Shown here: positions 7,800 to 64,000 of the stretch, in pieces | How positions within the stretch are numbered: position 1 is the stretch's first letter | Layout of the letters: every line of letters starts with the position of its first letter | Source: Chloroherpetonaceae bacterium | GTDB lineage: Bacteria > Bacteroidota > Chlorobiia > Chlorobiales > Thermochlorobacteraceae | Assembly: GCA_025055975.1 (NCBI GenBank) | Contig: JANWWM010000025.1 | Coordinates: 62,001 to 126,000, forward strand | Direction: 5' to 3' | Length of the DNA: 64,000 nucleotides | The notes under the pieces: model-generated | Databases searched by the model: none | Seen by the model: the letters and a program-made list of their open reading frames with translations, nothing else | What the model was told of the DNA's origin: nothing | Translations under genes and position numbers: made by a program

Positions 7800-9164
7800 A
7801 TGAAACGCATCACGATTCTGCTTCTTTTCGCAACGCTCTCGGCGTGCTCGTCGCAGCGCTTGGCGGCGCAAACGCCCGAATGGGTCGAGCGCAACGCCGA
7901 CAAACGCTTTCCGCCCGACCGCTACTGGATTGGCATATCGAGCGCCGTCGGCAACGATGCCGAAGAAAAAGCCAAAGAATCCGCCATCAAGCAAATCGCC
8001 GCGCAGTTCAAAACCCTCGTCAAAGCCAAAACCACGTTCACGAAACGCGAGGAAATCGAGGGCGGCGCGTCCAAACTCTCCGAGACCTACGAGGAAAAAA
8101 TCAACAACTACATCGAGAACGTGGAACTGACGGGCGCGCGCATCGTCGAGACGCACAAGCAAGGCATTCGCGTCTTCGCGCTCGCGGCGCTTGAAAAAGA
8201 GGCGTTTCTGCGCCCGCTTCGGCGCGAATTGCAAGCCTACCAGAAGTCGCTCTCGGAGCGATTGAAAACGGCGGAGTCGTTTGCGAGTTCAGACCTATCC
8301 AGCGCCATCAACGCTTACCTTGAAGTCCTGAACGCGCTCGAAGAAGCCGAGCCCAAGCGAGAATTCTTCAATCGCGTTTCGGGCGAAGTTTTCGAATTCT
8401 CCAACGACGTTCAGCCTGCGGCGGTGGAAGCGGCGATGCGAAAGGCGTTGAGCGAGGCGCGCTTGACGATGGTTTCAGGCAACAATCAAAAAGGCGAGTT
8501 GGGCAAAGCCTTCGCGCAACCGTTGGTCGTGAAAGCGACGAACAAAAGCGGCGCCGCCTTGCGCGGCTTGCCCATCGTTTTCGTGGCGGGCGAAACGGAG
8601 TTGGGCAAGGCGATCACAAACGACGAGGGCGTTGCCTCGTTTAGCCCCGTCGCCCAAGCCGACGGCGTTCAAGGCGGAAAAGGAAAAATCGTCGCCGCGC
8701 TTGAAATGAAGAACCTCTCGCCGCGCATGCGAGACGAAGTCCGTCAAAACGCATCGGTTACGTTCGAGTTCGCGCTCGATGCCTCGTCGTTCTTATGCGA
8801 ATTGGATTTGAGCGAAATCGAAGATGAACGCGCTCGACGCTCGCTTGAACAAAAGCTTGCGGACGCGCTCGCAAAGAACGGAGCGACGCTCAAACGCGGC
8901 GCGCCCTTGATTGCCAAAGCCGTCGTCGTCGCCCGCGAAGCCGCGTCGGTGCAAGGAATGAGCGGCGAGGTCGTCGTGCAAGACGTCACGCTCACGCTTC
9001 AATTTCAGCGTCGGGGCGGAAGCGCGCTAAGTTCGGTTTCTTTCGCGGCGAAAGGCTTGGGCAAAGACAAAGAGAGCGCCATCGCCAAGGCGCTTAGCGA
9101 CATTCGCATTTCTCCCTCTCGTTTCGCCGAGCCTATCGCAAAAGCGCGGAGCGCGACGGAATGA
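7800..9164 (+). CDS. LPP20-family lipoprotein with Ig-like middle domain
   Basis: A 454-residue lipoprotein: MKRITILLLFATLSAC gives a lipobox (LSAC, lipidated Cys16). Residues about 28-145 resemble the LPP20 domain (PEWVERNADKRFPPDRYW, then AEEKAKESAIKQIAAQF). A helical stretch follows, then near 240-310 a segment like a bacterial Ig domain (ATNKSGAALRGLPIVFV, TNDEGVASF). The C-terminal 120 residues hold an alpha/beta region of FlgT/CsgG-like character. No catalytic motif is seen. The start at 7800 gives the best signal; an in-frame ATG at 7788 overlaps the preceding stop. It is probably an envelope partner of the DUF6175 protein. Confidence 0.75.
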   Translation: MKRITILLLFATLSACSSQRLAAQTPEWVERNADKRFPPDRYWIGISSAVGNDAEEKAKESAIKQIAAQFKTLVKAKTTFTKREEIEGGASKLSETYEEKINNYIENVELTGARIVETHKQGIRVFALAALEKEAFLRPLRRELQAYQKSLSERLKTAESFASSDLSSAINAYLEVLNALEEAEPKREFFNRVSGEVFEFSNDVQPAAVEAAMRKALSEARLTMVSGNNQKGELGKAFAQPLVVKATNKSGAALRGLPIVFVAGETELGKAITNDEGVASFSPVAQADGVQGGKGKIVAALEMKNLSPRMRDEVRQNASVTFEFALDASSFLCELDLSEIEDERARRSLEQKLADALAKNGATLKRGAPLIAKAVVVAREAASVQGMSGEVVVQDVTLTLQFQRRGGSALSSVSFAAKGLGKDKESAIAKALSDIRISPSRFAEPIAKARSATE

Positions 9165-46914: not shown

Positions 46915-47682
46915 TCAAAAACGATTCGGCGGCGCAGGCGAAAGGCTTGCGCCGTTTTGTTTCGATGGCGCGCGCTTCCACTTCCAAAATTCTTTGTAAG
47001 GATTGATGGGCTTGGGCAAACCGTCTTTGCCGATTTGCAACACCATCAAATGCAGATGCGTGGGCGAGCGACGCTTGGCGGCATGAAAGCCCGTGCGCCC
47101 CACTTCGCCGATGGGCGAACCGCTCACGACGCACTCGCCCAACTCGACGAAAACGCTTCGCAAATGCGCGTAGTAGAAAATCCGCTTCGAGCTGGGGTCG
47201 TAAATCCAAACATACTTTCCGCCAAGCGAGCGACTCGTGTCGCGCCACTCGGTTCTGACTTCCACGACCACGCCGCTTGAAACGCTGACCACGCGAGCGG
47301 GAGCGCCCGTCTCGTCATCGAGTTCGTCTTGATTGTCGTCCAAGATGAAAATGTCGTGCGCGGGATGCGGATTGTGCTTGGTCTTGGCGAAGAAGTCAAA
47401 GCCGTAGGCGCGATAACCCTTGCCGTTGCCGCCGACCGCATGCGGCGAGTAGCCCTCGATGGGAAAGCGCCACTCGTTTCGGCTTGAAACGCCGCGATTC
47501 ACTCGCGCGAAGTATTCGTCTAATTTCGGAATGATGGCTTTGAAAGCGGCGATCGCCGAATCCCTCGCGATCGCCTCGGCGCGAATGTTTTGCTGAAGCC
47601 TAACGAACTCCTCGCAAGGCGAGCGCTCGGAAACGAGAGACGAATCCAAAAAAACGAACAGAACGGCGGCGAGCATTTTCAT
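46915..47682 (-). CDS. M23-family metallopeptidase, exported
   Basis: A 255-residue LytM-type protein: a signal peptide (MKMLAAVLFVFLDSSLVS), then a peptidase domain with zinc ligands in HPAHDIFILD (His106, Asp110) and THLHLMV (His209-Leu-His211), plus YYAHLRS (His173) and GSPIGEVGRTG. All ligands are present, so it may cleave peptidoglycan peptide bridges. The C-terminal tail after about residue 235 is basic and low-complexity, and its coding DNA contains the katG terminator. It converges on katG with 16 bases between stops. Confidence 0.85.
   Translation of the reverse strand: MKMLAAVLFVFLDSSLVSERSPCEEFVRLQQNIRAEAIARDSAIAAFKAIIPKLDEYFARVNRGVSSRNEWRFPIEGYSPHAVGGNGKGYRAYGFDFFAKTKHNPHPAHDIFILDDNQDELDDETGAPARVVSVSSGVVVEVRTEWRDTSRSLGGKYVWIYDPSSKRIFYYAHLRSVFVELGECVVSGSPIGEVGRTGFHAAKRRSPTHLHLMVLQIGKDGLPKPINPYKEFWKWKRAPSKQNGASLSPAPPNRF
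46930..46962 (+). terminator. Rho-independent terminator for katG, inside the end of the M23 gene
   Basis: CGGCGCAGGC and GCTTGCGCCG form a 10-bp stem (one G-U pair) with GAAAG as loop, followed by TTTTGTTT on the plus strand. Confidence 0.8.
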
Positions 47683-47826
47683 CGACCAAATTTGGCGGCA
47701 AATTTAACTTGGCGACGGCAAGACGTTCGCCGCAACGCGCCGATGGCAAAGCCTTTCCGCGAGTTTCAACCCCGATTCTCCCGCGAGAATTGCCTATATT
47801 CCCGCAACCTATCCGACGCATCAAAA

Positions 47827-50628
47827 ATGAACGACGCGCAGTTTGCCAGCCCAACGCTCGAGCGCTCGTTTGACGAAGCCCTGCAACGCGACGTGCGCTT
47901 GTTGGGAAACTTGTTGGGAAAAATTCTCATCGAGCAAGAGGGCGAAGCGTTCTTGGAACTCGAAGAAAAGATCCGCTTGCTCTGCAAAGAGATTCGTCAA
48001 AGCGGAAGCGATGAACGCCGAAAGGAGCTTGTCAAGCTCATCGATGACGTGTCCTTCCACGAAGCCGACAATTTGGTGCGCGCCTTTGGCACGTATTTTC
48101 ATCTCGTCAACGTCGCCGAGCAATTTCACCAAGTTCGCTCGATGCGAAACGCCGAGAGCGCGCAAGGCGCGTTGGAAAACTCGATCGAGCAAACCATCGA
48201 AACTCTCGCTCAAAGCGGCGTGTCCGCCGAAGCCGTCCAAGAATTGCTCGACGGGCTTTCCATAGAGCCGACTCTGACCGCGCATCCGACCGAAGCCTTG
48301 CGCCACACGATTTTGCGCAAGCGTCGTCAAGTCGCGTTGTTTTTGGAACGACTTGAAAATCCGTCTCACACGCCGAAGGAGCGCGAGGAAATTATGGAGC
48401 AACTATCCGCGCTCATCGCGTCGCTGTGGCAAACCGACGAAGTGCGTTCCTCGAAGCTCACCGTTCAAGACGAGGTCGCGGGGCATCTTTACTACTTCGA
48501 TCGCGTCTTTTTCGACGCGCTGCCAAGAGTGTATCGCTCGCTCGAGCTCGCGCTCAAAAAACATTATCCAAACGCGCGGTTTCGCGTGCCGCCGTTTCTG
48601 ACGCTTCACTCTTGGACGGGAGGCGATCGCGACGGTCACCCCTTCGTGACGCACGCGGTTACGAAGGAAACGCTCGAAACGATGAAAGCCACCATTTTGC
48701 AAAAGTATTTGGCGGCGGTCGAGAACGCGATTCTGCATCTTTCCATCTCGACGGCGCGCGCGTCCATCTCGCCCGAACTCGCCGAATCCATCAGGCTCGA
48801 CGAAGCGCGCTTCGGACGGGAAAGCATCGCAAACGAATGGGCGGGGCGCAATTACAACGAAGCCTATCGAATCAAACTGCGCTTCGTTTCCTATCGCCTC
48901 AAAAAAATGTTGGACGATCTAAGAAACGAAACCCATTCGGGCGTTGGCTACGAAAGCGAGCAAGAACTGCTCGACGATTTGCGCGTCGTTCACGAAAGCC
49001 TGATTCGCAACAAGGGCGAGCGCTTGGCGGAACTCATCACCGCGCCGCTCATTCGACAAGCGGAAATTTTCGGCTTCTCGTTCATCACGCTCGACATTCG
49101 CCAGCATGCGCGCAAGCAAGAAGCCGCGCTCGACGAAATCACCGAAGCGCTGCGATTGCTCCCGAAGCCCTATCGAGAGATGACCGAATCGGAGCGCGTG
49201 CAGTGGCTCGTCTCCGAACTCCGCTCGCGTCGCCCGATGATTCCCTACAAACTGACGTTCTCGGAAGAGACCAACGAACTCATCTTGACCTTTCGCCAAA
49301 TCCGACGCTCGCTCGAAACCATCAGCAAGCGCGCCATCGATACCTACATCATCAGCGGCGCGGAAAGCGCCAGCGACGTGCTCGAAGGATTGCTCCTCGC
49401 CAAAGAGGCGGGTTTGTTCCGACATTTGCCCAACGACGACATCGAGTGCGACCTTCACGTCGTTCCGCTCTTCGAGACGATTTACGACCTTCGCCGAGCG
49501 GGCAGTTTGCTCGAAGAACTGTTCTCGCTGCCGATTTATCGCAAAGCCATCGCCGCGCGCGGCAACTTGCAAGAAGTGATGATTGGCTATTCGGATTCGA
49601 GCAAAGACGGCGGATTGATGGCGTCGAGTTGGGAGCTCTACAAGGCGCAAATCGCGCTCAAAGCGGTCGCCGACATTTTCGGCGTGAGCCTGAAACTCTT
49701 TCACGGACGGGGCGGAACGGTCGGACGTGGCGGCGGCTTGCCCGTGCATCAAGCCATCTTGGCGCAACCGCCGGGCACGGTCGGCGGAAAAATCAAAATC
49801 ACCGAGCAGGGCGAAATCATCTCCGCCAAGTATATGCTTCCGCAAATCGCCGAGCGCAACCTCGAACTCGTCGTCTCCGCCGTGATGATGGCGAGCGTTT
49901 CGCCCAAAAAAACCGCGACGAAATTGGAATGGCGACACGCGCTCGAAACGATGTCGGTCGCTTCGATGAAAGCCTATCGACAGTTGGTTTATGAAAACGA
50001 AGACTTCCCGCTCTTTTTCCGCGAAGCGACTCCCATCGATGTGATTGAGCAGATGGAAATCGGCTCGCGCCCCTCGCGTCGCGCCGCGCGAGCGCGCATT
50101 GAAGACCTGCGCGCGATTCCGTGGGTCTTTTCGTGGATGCAAAATCGCGCCACGATGCCAAGTTGGTATGGCGTGGGGTCGGGCTTGCAAGCCGCTTTGG
50201 ACAAGGGCATTCCGCTCGAACTCCTGCAAGAAATGCATGACGAGTGGGCGTTTTTCCGCTCGCTCATCGACAACGTGCAAATGATTTTGGCGAAGACCGA
50301 CCTGCGCGTCGCCAAAGAATACGCCGCGCTCGTTTCCGACGCGGCAATGCGCGAAAAGTTCTTCTCTCAAATCGAGCGCGAGTTCGAGCTCACCAAAGCC
50401 AACGTGCTCGCCGTTACCAAGCAAAGCGAACTCTTGGAAAACAATCCCGCCTTGCTCAAATCGCTGCGACTCCGAGATCCCTACATCGACCCCATCAGTT
50501 ACATTCAAGTCGCCGCGCTCAAACGCTACAGAAGCCAAACCAAAACCGACGAGGAAAAGCAAAAATATCTGACCCTGCTGCGCACGAGCGTCAATGGCGT
50601 AGCGGCGGGCATTCGCAACACGGGTTGA
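47827..50628 (+). CDS. ppc: Phosphoenolpyruvate carboxylase
   Basis: A 933-residue anaplerotic enzyme forming oxaloacetate from PEP and bicarbonate. Catalytic His153 sits in PTLTAHPTEALRH; SWTGGDRDGHPFVT, ILTFRQIRRSLE, GYSDSSKDGGLMAS, FHGRGGTVGRGGG and the terminal GVAAGIRNTG are all family signatures. The length is usual. The start at 47827 was chosen by the family N-terminus; a TATATT at 47795-47800 lies about 30 bases upstream without a clear -35. The frame is open upstream to 47590 without similarity. Confidence 0.97.
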   Translation: MNDAQFASPTLERSFDEALQRDVRLLGNLLGKILIEQEGEAFLELEEKIRLLCKEIRQSGSDERRKELVKLIDDVSFHEADNLVRAFGTYFHLVNVAEQFHQVRSMRNAESAQGALENSIEQTIETLAQSGVSAEAVQELLDGLSIEPTLTAHPTEALRHTILRKRRQVALFLERLENPSHTPKEREEIMEQLSALIASLWQTDEVRSSKLTVQDEVAGHLYYFDRVFFDALPRVYRSLELALKKHYPNARFRVPPFLTLHSWTGGDRDGHPFVTHAVTKETLETMKATILQKYLAAVENAILHLSISTARASISPELAESIRLDEARFGRESIANEWAGRNYNEAYRIKLRFVSYRLKKMLDDLRNETHSGVGYESEQELLDDLRVVHESLIRNKGERLAELITAPLIRQAEIFGFSFITLDIRQHARKQEAALDEITEALRLLPKPYREMTESERVQWLVSELRSRRPMIPYKLTFSEETNELILTFRQIRRSLETISKRAIDTYIISGAESASDVLEGLLLAKEAGLFRHLPNDDIECDLHVVPLFETIYDLRRAGSLLEELFSLPIYRKAIAARGNLQEVMIGYSDSSKDGGLMASSWELYKAQIALKAVADIFGVSLKLFHGRGGTVGRGGGLPVHQAILAQPPGTVGGKIKITEQGEIISAKYMLPQIAERNLELVVSAVMMASVSPKKTATKLEWRHALETMSVASMKAYRQLVYENEDFPLFFREATPIDVIEQMEIGSRPSRRAARARIEDLRAIPWVFSWMQNRATMPSWYGVGSGLQAALDKGIPLELLQEMHDEWAFFRSLIDNVQMILAKTDLRVAKEYAALVSDAAMREKFFSQIEREFELTKANVLAVTKQSELLENNPALLKSLRLRDPYIDPISYIQVAALKRYRSQTKTDEEKQKYLTLLRTSVNGVAAGIRNTG

Positions 50629-50633
50629 CGAAA

Positions 50634-51455
50634 ATGAACGCGAAAACCAAGCCCACCATCGACGACATTCTCGCCTCAATCCAAAAAGGCGAGCGGCTCG
50701 GCATTGAAGAAGCCTTGATTTTTCTCGCCTCGACGAAGAAAGCGATCGACCGAAGCGGAATGGAGCGATTCTTCGATGCCGCTCGCGCCGAAGCGCGCAA
50801 GCGACCCGCATGGCGACGTTTGGACGTGGAAACGATCGATCTCTCCAAAACCCCCGTCGAAGCGCTTGAAGAGCGCCTTCAAGCAAGCGACGCGGAACGA
50901 GCCTTTCTGCGCTTCCCCGCGTCGTTTTCAGCCGAAGAAATTTTTGACGCGATCGAGCGCGTCGCCAAACATTTGCCCGTCGGCGCGTTTTCGCCCAAAG
51001 AGATTCTCGACCGCTCGGCGAAGTTCAAAATGAAAGTGGCGGAATTTTGCAGAACGCTGGCGCTCGCGGGCTTGTCGTTTGCGTCGGGAAGATTCGATGC
51101 CAAAGGCGACGACCTTGCGACGATCGACGAAACGTTCAGCGCGCTGACGCAACTGGCGAAAGCGAAAATCAAAACGAGCGCTTGTTTGCCAATCTCGTTC
51201 AGCGAAGAAGAACAAGCCGCTCACCTCGCCAAACTGCGCGAGTTTCACGACCGAACCCAAGCCATTGATTTCGTCTTGCTCTACCTCGACGGAAAGTTCA
51301 GCGACAGAGGCTTGCTCCGCTCAATCGCCTTGATGCGCCTAATGCTCGACAATCTCGACGCGATTTCGCTTTCGGACTACGACCTTTCGCAAGAGAAGAA
51401 AATCGATGCCGAGCTTTTCCGACAATGCGTCGAGTTGGGGCTGAATCAATCTTGA
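50634..51455 (+). CDS. Protein related to menaquinone radical-SAM enzymes MqnC/MqnE but without the cluster cysteines
   Basis: A 273-residue protein, five bases after ppc. The N-terminal DDILASIQKGERLGIEEALI resembles the start of MqnC/MqnE-type enzymes; the C-terminal half, LALAGLSFASGRF, HLAKLREFHDRTQAIDF and IALMRLMLDNLDAISLS, follows their AGLxSxxGxxAE, hLxxLRxlQdxT and AxxRlxLDNixNIQ blocks. The CxxxCxxC motif that binds the radical-SAM [4Fe-4S] cluster is missing: the protein has only three cysteines, none in that spacing. It cannot be a normal radical-SAM enzyme. No frameshift is visible, so it seems a maintained, repurposed paralog. The family link is by eye. Confidence 0.55.
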   Translation: MNAKTKPTIDDILASIQKGERLGIEEALIFLASTKKAIDRSGMERFFDAARAEARKRPAWRRLDVETIDLSKTPVEALEERLQASDAERAFLRFPASFSAEEIFDAIERVAKHLPVGAFSPKEILDRSAKFKMKVAEFCRTLALAGLSFASGRFDAKGDDLATIDETFSALTQLAKAKIKTSACLPISFSEEEQAAHLAKLREFHDRTQAIDFVLLYLDGKFSDRGLLRSIALMRLMLDNLDAISLSDYDLSQEKKIDAELFRQCVELGLNQS

Positions 51456-52586: not shown

Positions 52587-53420
52587 ATGAGCGCGATTGA
52601 ACCTAACTTTGCGGCGATCGAAGACGAGCCGCTTTCGGCTTATCAGAAAGCCGCCCAGCAAGGCATCGACCCGCGTTGCGTTCCGCAACGGTTGAGCGCG
52701 CCCCCGCCAATGTGCGCCGACATCGTCTATCCAAACTACTCCGAAGAAGAGCATCAAATCTGGCAAACGCTCTATCGTCGGCAAGCCGAGCTGCTTCCGA
52801 ACCGCGCGTGCGACGAGTTCCTGCAAGGCTTGGAGATGCTCAACCTTAGTCCCGACCGCATTCCGTCGCTCGCCGAACTCTCCAACGTGTTGGAAGCGCA
52901 AACCAACTGGCGCGTGGCGCGCATCCCGGGCTTGTTGCACGAACAGGACTTCTTCAAACTGCTCGCCGACCGCGTCTTTCCCTCAACGGACTACATTCGT
53001 CGCAAAGACGAACTCGGCTACACGCCCGCGCCCGACATCTTTCACGACGTTTTCGGGCACATGCCAATGCTCACCAACGCCGATTTCGCCGATTTCTCGC
53101 AACTCTTCGGCAAAGCCGCGCTCAACGCCAAAGGCGACGACCGCGTCGCGTTGGAGCGATTCTATTGGTTCACGGTCGAGTTCGGCTTGATTGAAACGCC
53201 CAAGGGGCGACGCATCTACGGCGCGGGCACGCTTTCAAGCGGCACGGAAGTGTTGCATAGCCTTTCCGACGACGTCGTCGTGTATCCCTTCTCGCCCGAA
53301 AAAATCGTTCGTCAAGAATACGACGTGTGGCATCTGCAACCGATTCTTTTCGCGGTGGAATCGTTTGAAGAATTGAAGCAAGGATTCAAAGACTGGACGC
53401 GCTCGCGCGGCTTGCTTTGA
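52587..53420 (+). CDS. phhA: Phenylalanine 4-monooxygenase
   Basis: A 277-residue tetrahydropterin-dependent hydroxylase making tyrosine from phenylalanine. The iron ligands are His153 and His158 in PDIFHDVFGHMP and Glu198 in FYWFTVEFG. The conserved GTLSSGTE and YDVWHLQPILF segments are present. It is the short bacterial form without the ACT regulatory domain. GAGGAGCAAGAACT before the ATG is a good ribosome-binding site; a -10-like TATCTTTCG lies at 52552-52560. A terminator follows. Confidence 0.96.
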   Translation: MSAIEPNFAAIEDEPLSAYQKAAQQGIDPRCVPQRLSAPPPMCADIVYPNYSEEEHQIWQTLYRRQAELLPNRACDEFLQGLEMLNLSPDRIPSLAELSNVLEAQTNWRVARIPGLLHEQDFFKLLADRVFPSTDYIRRKDELGYTPAPDIFHDVFGHMPMLTNADFADFSQLFGKAALNAKGDDRVALERFYWFTVEFGLIETPKGRRIYGAGTLSSGTEVLHSLSDDVVVYPFSPEKIVRQEYDVWHLQPILFAVESFEELKQGFKDWTRSRGLL

Positions 53421-63500: not shown

Positions 63501-64000
63501 TTACGCTTTTTTCACCTCTTCGAGCGGCAAGTGCAATCGAGCGGCGATGACGTCGTCGTTCAAGCCTAACTCGCGGAGCAGCGGGACGGTCGCAAGTTTG
63601 CCTTTGACGACGCCTTCCGCTCTGCCTTCCTCTCTGCCTTCTTCCAAAATCTCTTGATAGGCGCGAGTTTTCTTCAATTCTTGCTCGAATTCTTCTCGGA
63701 CGTTCAACATCTTCAATATCTCCTTTCGCGTTAGGTTCTTGAATTTGTAAAACAAGACGCGCTCAATGAAATCCAAGCGTTCAGGCGCGCGCTCAATCAA
63801 CGCTTTCGCCGAAGCGATGACCGTCGGCTCTGGCTCAATGACAAGCTTGAAAACGCCGACCGCGCCATCAAGACGCTCCAAACTTGGCAACTCGTCCAAA
63901 TATACGCGCCGAACCAAGCGCGTTTCAAGCAGTTCTTCGTAACCGCGACGGTTCGTTTGCTCAACGCTTCTCGTCGGATAAATCACGACGGCTTGCCACG
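63501..64000 (-). CDS. DUF2887/Rpn-family PD-(D/E)xK nuclease-like protein (5' end cut by window edge)
   Basis: The minus-strand frame is open to the window end; about 165 codons are seen. The N-terminal visible part, WQAVVIYPTRSVEQTNRRGY, with YLDELPSLERLDGAVGVFKL and FIERVLFYKFKNLTRKEILK, matches the middle and C-terminal region of DUF2887 proteins, relatives of Rpn/transposase_31 recombination-promoting nucleases. The charged repeats EGREEGRAEG near the end are typical. The nuclease core with D/ExK residues lies outside the window. These genes multiply in cyanobacterial and Chlorobi genomes. Confidence 0.8.
   Translation of the reverse strand, partial: WQAVVIYPTRSVEQTNRRGYEELLETRLVRRVYLDELPSLERLDGAVGVFKLVIEPEPTVIASAKALIERAPERLDFIERVLFYKFKNLTRKEILKMLNVREEFEQELKKTRAYQEILEEGREEGRAEGVVKGKLATVPLLRELGLNDDVIAARLHLPLEEVKKA

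Follow-up and report, generated by a model that had tools for sequence, protein, structure and literature searches.

The window (the whole 64,000-nt stretch of DNA analyzed here) encodes, at positions 50634..51455 of the + strand, a protein that resembles the radical-SAM enzymes MqnC and MqnE and lacks their CxxxCxxC motif. Sequence profiles, the predicted fold and the pattern of motif loss support its classification as a cluster-less radical-SAM relative, as the initial annotation had proposed, and we regard this class assignment as well supported. The cluster and nearly all active-site residues have been lost, yet the gene is conserved in one clade, and the protein therefore probably has a non-radical job, perhaps protein binding. 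The explanation that we favor is a pseudoenzyme turned to non-catalytic use, probably as a protein-binding module that acts through barrel helices 4–6, a proposal to which we attach about even confidence.

The three-cysteine motif is the usual mark of radical-SAM proteins, and motif-based annotation will miss a clade in which selection maintains the barrel but the motif is gone. Such a clade would also be a natural experiment in how the radical-SAM barrel can be reused. A literature search over titles and the opening lines of abstracts, with few subscription journals covered, found no paper on a cluster-less MqnC/MqnE relative or on a radical-SAM pseudoenzyme of this kind, and none that pairs Chloroherpeton with futalosine. 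For Chloroherpeton paired with menaquinone biosynthesis, the same search returned one genome paper on a phototrophic consortium.

Read from the window, the frame runs from an ATG at 50634 to a stop codon at 51453–51455 and encodes 273 aa; its orthologues and dN/dS values (below) support it as a gene. The previously proposed coordinates and direct ppc neighbor are thus confirmed: the frame starts 5 nt past the stop codon of the ppc open frame (47590..50628, + strand), included here for context only, and the short gap suggests co-transcription. The genome that contains the window spans 2.68 Mb in 92 contigs and is 85% complete.

Kinship by sequence profile, predicted fold and tree

Taken alone, the window protein finds its best NCBIfam match in the MqnC model TIGR03699 (E 1.1e-6, 27.8 bits, residues 101–247), with weaker matches to the CofH models TIGR03551 (19.3 bits) and NF005609 (21.8 bits); a Pfam scan and a phmmer search against PDB sequences gave no match. 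These scores lie far below the cut-offs for membership in MqnC (428.1 bits) and in CofH (374.1 bits for TIGR03551 and 426 bits for NF005609). Nor does the protein belong to MqnE (TIGR03700, defined by a cut-off of 434.55 bits together with the cluster motif), since the motif is absent.

The family as a whole is more informative. Among the ten intact copies, which comprise the window protein and nine orthologues, all match TIGR03699 (best E 5.5e-12), eight match the CofH models TIGR00423 and TIGR03551, seven match NF005609, seven match MqnE TIGR03700 and five match the CofH_C domain (best E 0.0017). In a profile–profile comparison, the alignment of these copies matches a profile of nine true MqnC proteins over 259 columns (probability 99.2, E 2e-19, 23% identity). 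The match runs from end to end, which upholds the claim of resemblance to MqnC/MqnE over most of the length. Searched against PDB sequences, the family profile retrieves MqnE (E 0.00095) and HydG (E 0.0024). Placement in an unrelated family, one of two outcomes named beforehand as fatal to the proposed kinship, is therefore not what the profile searches give: they put the protein with MqnC, CofH and MqnE.

The other such outcome was a predicted structure without a TIM barrel. AlphaFold run on the single sequence reached a pLDDT of only 42.5 and the model is useless. When the window protein was aligned with five relatives as input, the five models have mean pLDDT values of 80.8, 78.1, 60.4, 48.2 and 47.3, so that the result leans on two models and two are poor; the best has a pTM of 0.77. 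It is predicted to consist of three N-terminal helices (residues 9–56; 50658..50801, + strand), which carry the GERLG.xEA motif common to the parent family, followed by seven strand–helix units that form a TIM barrel, with the first barrel strand placed by the model and the alignment at residues 65–69 (50826..50840, + strand). Foldseek ranks four MqnE chains first (E 4.9e-10 to 2.9e-9). The best solved match in VIA-align is also MqnE (Z 20.6, rmsd 3.8, 257 residues, 17% identity), followed by BioB, HydG, HydE, ThiH, PylB and the tryptophan lyase NosL, down to Z 12.6. Radical-SAM chains fill the first 22 rows (Z 20.6–12.6), and barrels from outside the superfamily score at most 11.1.

In a tree of 29 proteins, all 10 members form one branch (support 100/100) whose stem measures 2.1 changes per column, and this branch groups with MqnC/MqnE against BioB/ThiH (99/96). 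By descent and by predicted fold, the protein thus falls within the radical-SAM superfamily. The closer parent is not separated by diagnostic residues, which are split one against one between MqnC and MqnE; in the tree the family joins MqnC and MqnE as a whole, on a stem long enough to call for a long-branch warning.

Lost active site and conserved helices

None of the three cluster cysteines is present at the motif columns in any of the 10 members, in agreement with the missing motif noted earlier: two of the columns are deleted and one is replaced. In the alignment the CxxxCxxC loop is lost between residues 65 and 66, after position 50828. The start of the protein is not truncated, since it has the GERL.xEa segment found at the N-terminus of the parent family; the deletion is internal and falls between the first strand and the first helix. 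The losses extend to the GG after strand 2 (10 of 10 members), the GGGAE after strand 4 and the GHxE after strand 5. Everything beyond the FGADD point of the parent enzymes is also absent, the window protein ending in LGLNQS at the position aligned with FGADDF (51435..51455, + strand). With parent columns defined as identical in at least 14 of 15 reference sequences (nine MqnC and six MqnE), and counted as kept when present in at least eight of ten cluster-less members, only nine of 55 are kept: G146, G152, H197, R202, A232, R235, N240, I244 and G269.

We take the roles of the lost motifs (cluster, SAM and substrate binding) to be those that they have in radical-SAM enzymes. A radical-SAM protein without cluster ligands cannot cleave SAM reductively. 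Both the cluster ligands and the SAM glycines are lost in 10 of 10 members, and the family is, judging from its sequences, probably incapable of radical-SAM chemistry. At the sequence level it has the attributes of a pseudoenzyme, that is, an enzyme homolog without catalytic residues that is kept by selection.

What selection has kept was examined by structural class in the 10 members, with the catalytic face set on the predicted model by strand and helix class and normalized entropy compared with random draws. Among the classes of the cluster-less family, conservation is lowest on the catalytic face (entropy 0.48, n = 87, P 0.98) and highest in the helix middles (0.37, n = 47, P 0.017). In nine MqnC proteins, conservation is instead strongest on the catalytic face (0.24, P 0.065), and the helix middles give 0.29 (P 0.76). 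Six MqnE proteins give 0.26 and 0.39 for these two classes, and their strand starts are even lower, at 0.19. Conservation thus appears inverted, from the catalytic face to the helices, which favors a surface-binding, non-catalytic role. The helix-face signal is modest, coming from few sequences and a predicted model, with the MqnC control itself at P 0.065.

The proposed interaction face comprises barrel helices 4, 5 and 6 (residues 161–237; 51114..51344, + strand), as delimited by the alignment and the model. A large share of the residues invariant in the family fall in this segment, namely D165, E166, F168, S169, H197, R202, E203, F204, D206, R207, A232, R235, M237 and L238, of which H197, R202, A232 and R235 are inherited from the parent enzymes. 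On the catalytic face, the polar residues D160, S188, K221, S223, Y249 and Q253 are kept in nine or ten of ten members.

Distribution, gene neighborhood and quinone pathways

The class was searched in 98 genomes, distributed over four tool-numbered families (f1–f4) that we infer to be Thermochlorobacter-like (f1), Chloroherpeton-like (f2) and Chlorobiaceae (f4), f3 carrying no name here. A proposed family Chloroherpetonaceae is reported to take in C. thalassium and Ca. Thermochlorobacter (PMC9318685). The cluster-less gene is found in 11 of the 98 genomes: 8/9 in f1, 2/2 in f2, 1/1 in f3 and 0/86 in f4. Outside f4 the sole miss among 12 genomes is an f1 genome (G002) that is 81% complete. Across the phylum, 394 evenly drawn genomes yielded 24 further matching genomes, with much poorer scores than the family members, at E 2.5e-14 or weaker. 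Nineteen of these loci were fetched (L070–L088) and 18 were read, the shorter L074 being left out; CxxxCxxC is present in all 18, which look like true MqnC or MqnE. Against the collected genome contigs, the window protein alone gave no match. The family alignment gave five loci in a search that is not exhaustive, as none falls on contigs of the gene-carrying genomes G005, G006, G007, G009 and G012. Named relatives of the locus are metagenome-assembled genomes of Candidatus Thermochlorobacteriaceae, Candidatus Thermochlorobacter aerophilum and other Chlorobiales.

Among the phylum loci, seven from several Bacteroidota families (L077, L078, L080, L082, L083, L084 and L088) have frames of 621–653 aa. 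These are apparently MqnE–MqnA fusions, with an N-terminal part that aligns as MqnE and a C-terminal part that looks MqnA-like by eye.

Four of six dN/dS comparisons were computable, two being saturated. The window gene gives 0.116 and 0.121 against two congeners, which give 0.082 between themselves, and the pair G007–G008 gives 0.077. These values (0.08–0.12), the orthologue in 11 of the 12 non-f4 genomes and the ten intact copies sustain the earlier argument that the gene is no fresh pseudogene. The protein is identical at 69–70% of positions within the genus, versus 88–89% for a GNAT-type protein described below, and at 36–46% outside it, where the matching values of the GNAT-type protein are 61–73% (copies of G010, G007 and G009 are left out for the latter). 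The identity of ppc is 0.84 over 932 columns. In the one-contig f2 genome G009, the orthologue is split over two frames near the end of the first helices. The break apparently lies at a T run (L022, about 8500–8700; G009:C1:2453017-2453083) and could be a mutation or a sequencing error.

Direct adjacency to ppc, noted in the initial annotation, is seen in the window and is not a general trait of the family: ppc lies upstream only in the window, G001 and G003, that is, in the window's genus, and we reject it as a general partner. Directly upstream of the cluster-less gene in six other genomes (G004, G005, G007, G008, G009 and G012) is the gene for a 377-aa GNAT-type acetyltransferase, identified by PF00583 in the two copies scanned. 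In G010 the two genes each lie at contig ends, where adjacency is possible, and in G006 the cluster-less gene is elsewhere. The two genes are therefore apart in four of 11 carriers (the window's genome, G001, G003 and G006). The GNAT-type gene is present in 15 of 16 genomes searched, among them all four f4 genomes, where it occurs without the cluster-less family, and its standing as an obligate partner is doubtful.

A DAHP synthase gene (PF00793 in the G009 copy) precedes the GNAT-type gene in G009 and G012. The same order is found without the cluster-less gene in the four f4 genomes, with the DAHP synthase recognized by eye, and the cluster-less gene was thus either inserted into, or lost from, the surroundings of an older gene pair. 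On the other side, a DUF2887 gene (PF11103, scanned in L015) lies directly 3′ of the cluster-less gene in G001 and G003 (L015:8470-9312 and L016:4920-5726); the window's own member, at 63501–63998, is 12 kb away.

A check for mqn and men genes had been proposed, and searches of the window's genome and 15 relatives found none of the mqn genes sought. MqnA/MqnD (PF02621) is absent from all 16 genomes and positive in four of 14 controls. MqnE exceeds its cut-off in none of the 16, with no match at E ≤ 0.001 in the window's genome. MqnC, searched in that genome only (85% complete), has no match besides the cluster-less gene. MenD and MenB exceed their cut-offs in G009, G012 and four f4 genomes and do so in none of the f1 and f3 genomes searched. 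The cluster-less family thus occurs both with the classical menaquinone pathway (G009 and G012) and without it (G000, G001, G003–G008 and G010), and always without the futalosine pathway where tested. The accessory role suggested earlier fails in one specific form, as an accessory of the futalosine pathway, which we reject given the absence of pathway genes from the genomes searched; a general scaffold or accessory role would be the most likely reading.

The same genomes show a complementary pattern of their own. 4-Hydroxyphenylpyruvate dioxygenase (TIGR01263, over cut-off) is found in 10/10 genomes without MenD/MenB (G000–G008 and G010) and in 0/6 with them (G009, G011, G012, G022, G025 and G030), a perfectly complementary distribution, and all 16 genomes have NuoH and MenA-type prenyltransferases. 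In the Thermochlorobacter-like lineage, menaquinone may have given way to a quinone of the plastoquinone type made from homogentisate; the pattern could instead reflect tyrosine breakdown or the uptake of a quinone precursor. Three tandem UbiA/MenA-type prenyltransferase genes, in genomes that lack the early menaquinone genes, are candidates for homogentisate prenylation (L147:5206-8515 in G001 and L148:5416-8366 in G008). By their coordinates, two or three prenyltransferase matches also lie close together in G002, G003, G004, G005 and G007. In the window, two genes beyond the cluster-less gene, a phenylalanine 4-hydroxylase (Biopterin_H, PF00351, E 4.8e-60; 52587–53420, + strand) could supply tyrosine to a homogentisate route.

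Explanations and comparison with known systems

A plausible course of events would begin with one ancestral event, or a series, in which an MqnC/MqnE/CofH-type barrel lost its [4Fe-4S] loop, SAM-binding glycines and substrate motifs along with part of its C-terminus. The conserved helical face would then bind protein, perhaps the product of the GNAT-type gene, and this role would have outlasted the gene's transfer to a site downstream of ppc in the window's genus. The GNAT partnership is the weak part of this proposal, because f4 genomes have the GNAT-type gene alone and the genes are apart in four of 11 carriers. We would advance only tentatively the stronger claim that the whole family has left radical-SAM chemistry to become a dedicated non-catalytic partner of the GNAT-type enzyme or of another protein, its barrel having lost the cluster in a single ancestor and its conserved surface having shifted from the catalytic mouth to the outer helices.

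Two alternatives would give the protein another function. An enzyme or ligand-binding protein might have built a new, non-radical active site in the barrel mouth; TIM barrels have often taken up new chemistry. The retained polar residues of the catalytic face and the invariant D165, E166 and S169 of helix 4 could serve such a site, but it is on that face, taken as a whole, that the barrel is least conserved, and all parent motifs on it are gone, and we judge this explanation unlikely, if worth serious consideration. Descent from MqnC/MqnE-type enzymes, and the DAHP synthase gene two genes upstream in G009 and G012, could instead point to a residual quinone or aromatic link, for example a sensor or carrier that binds naphthoate or a futalosine-like ligand. 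The substrate motifs are lost, however, the gene is present in genomes with and without MenD/MenB, and the DAHP synthase gene adjoins the GNAT-type gene in f4 too, where the cluster-less family is missing; the chance of such a link seems small.

Slightly smaller still is the chance that the protein is a functionless leftover of a vanished futalosine pathway and is decaying. Several observations fit decay: no mqn genes are left in the 16 genomes searched, the protein evolves fast relative to the GNAT-type protein, the G009 frame is broken and no f4 genome has the gene. Decay is at odds with the low dN/dS, with ten intact copies across three families and with a gene that was relocated in the window's genus and is still intact in three genomes. 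An unrelated TIM barrel with a chance likeness to MqnC is scarcely credible: the 27.8-bit match of the window protein alone and its lack of a Pfam match would allow it, but the family gives a full-length profile match and the 22 top-ranked structural matches are all radical-SAM chains.

The non-catalytic, probably protein-binding module that we favor is best seen against its relatives. With MqnC (TIGR03699), the family shares the N-terminal helices, the barrel and the ReLQD.T and RLmLDN segments; it differs in lacking CxxxCxxC, the SAM glycines, GGGAE and the C-terminal region, and futalosine pathway genes were not found in the genomes searched. MqnE (TIGR03700; PDB 6XI9 and 6XIG) is the nearest solved structure to the predicted model, and relative to it the family has the same losses as relative to MqnC. 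CofH has weaker profile matches and the CofH_C hint in common with the family, which again is without the cluster motif. The barrels of BioB, HydE, HydG and ThiH are the same barrel at Z of about 15 to 17, in enzymes that are all known to carry the cluster.
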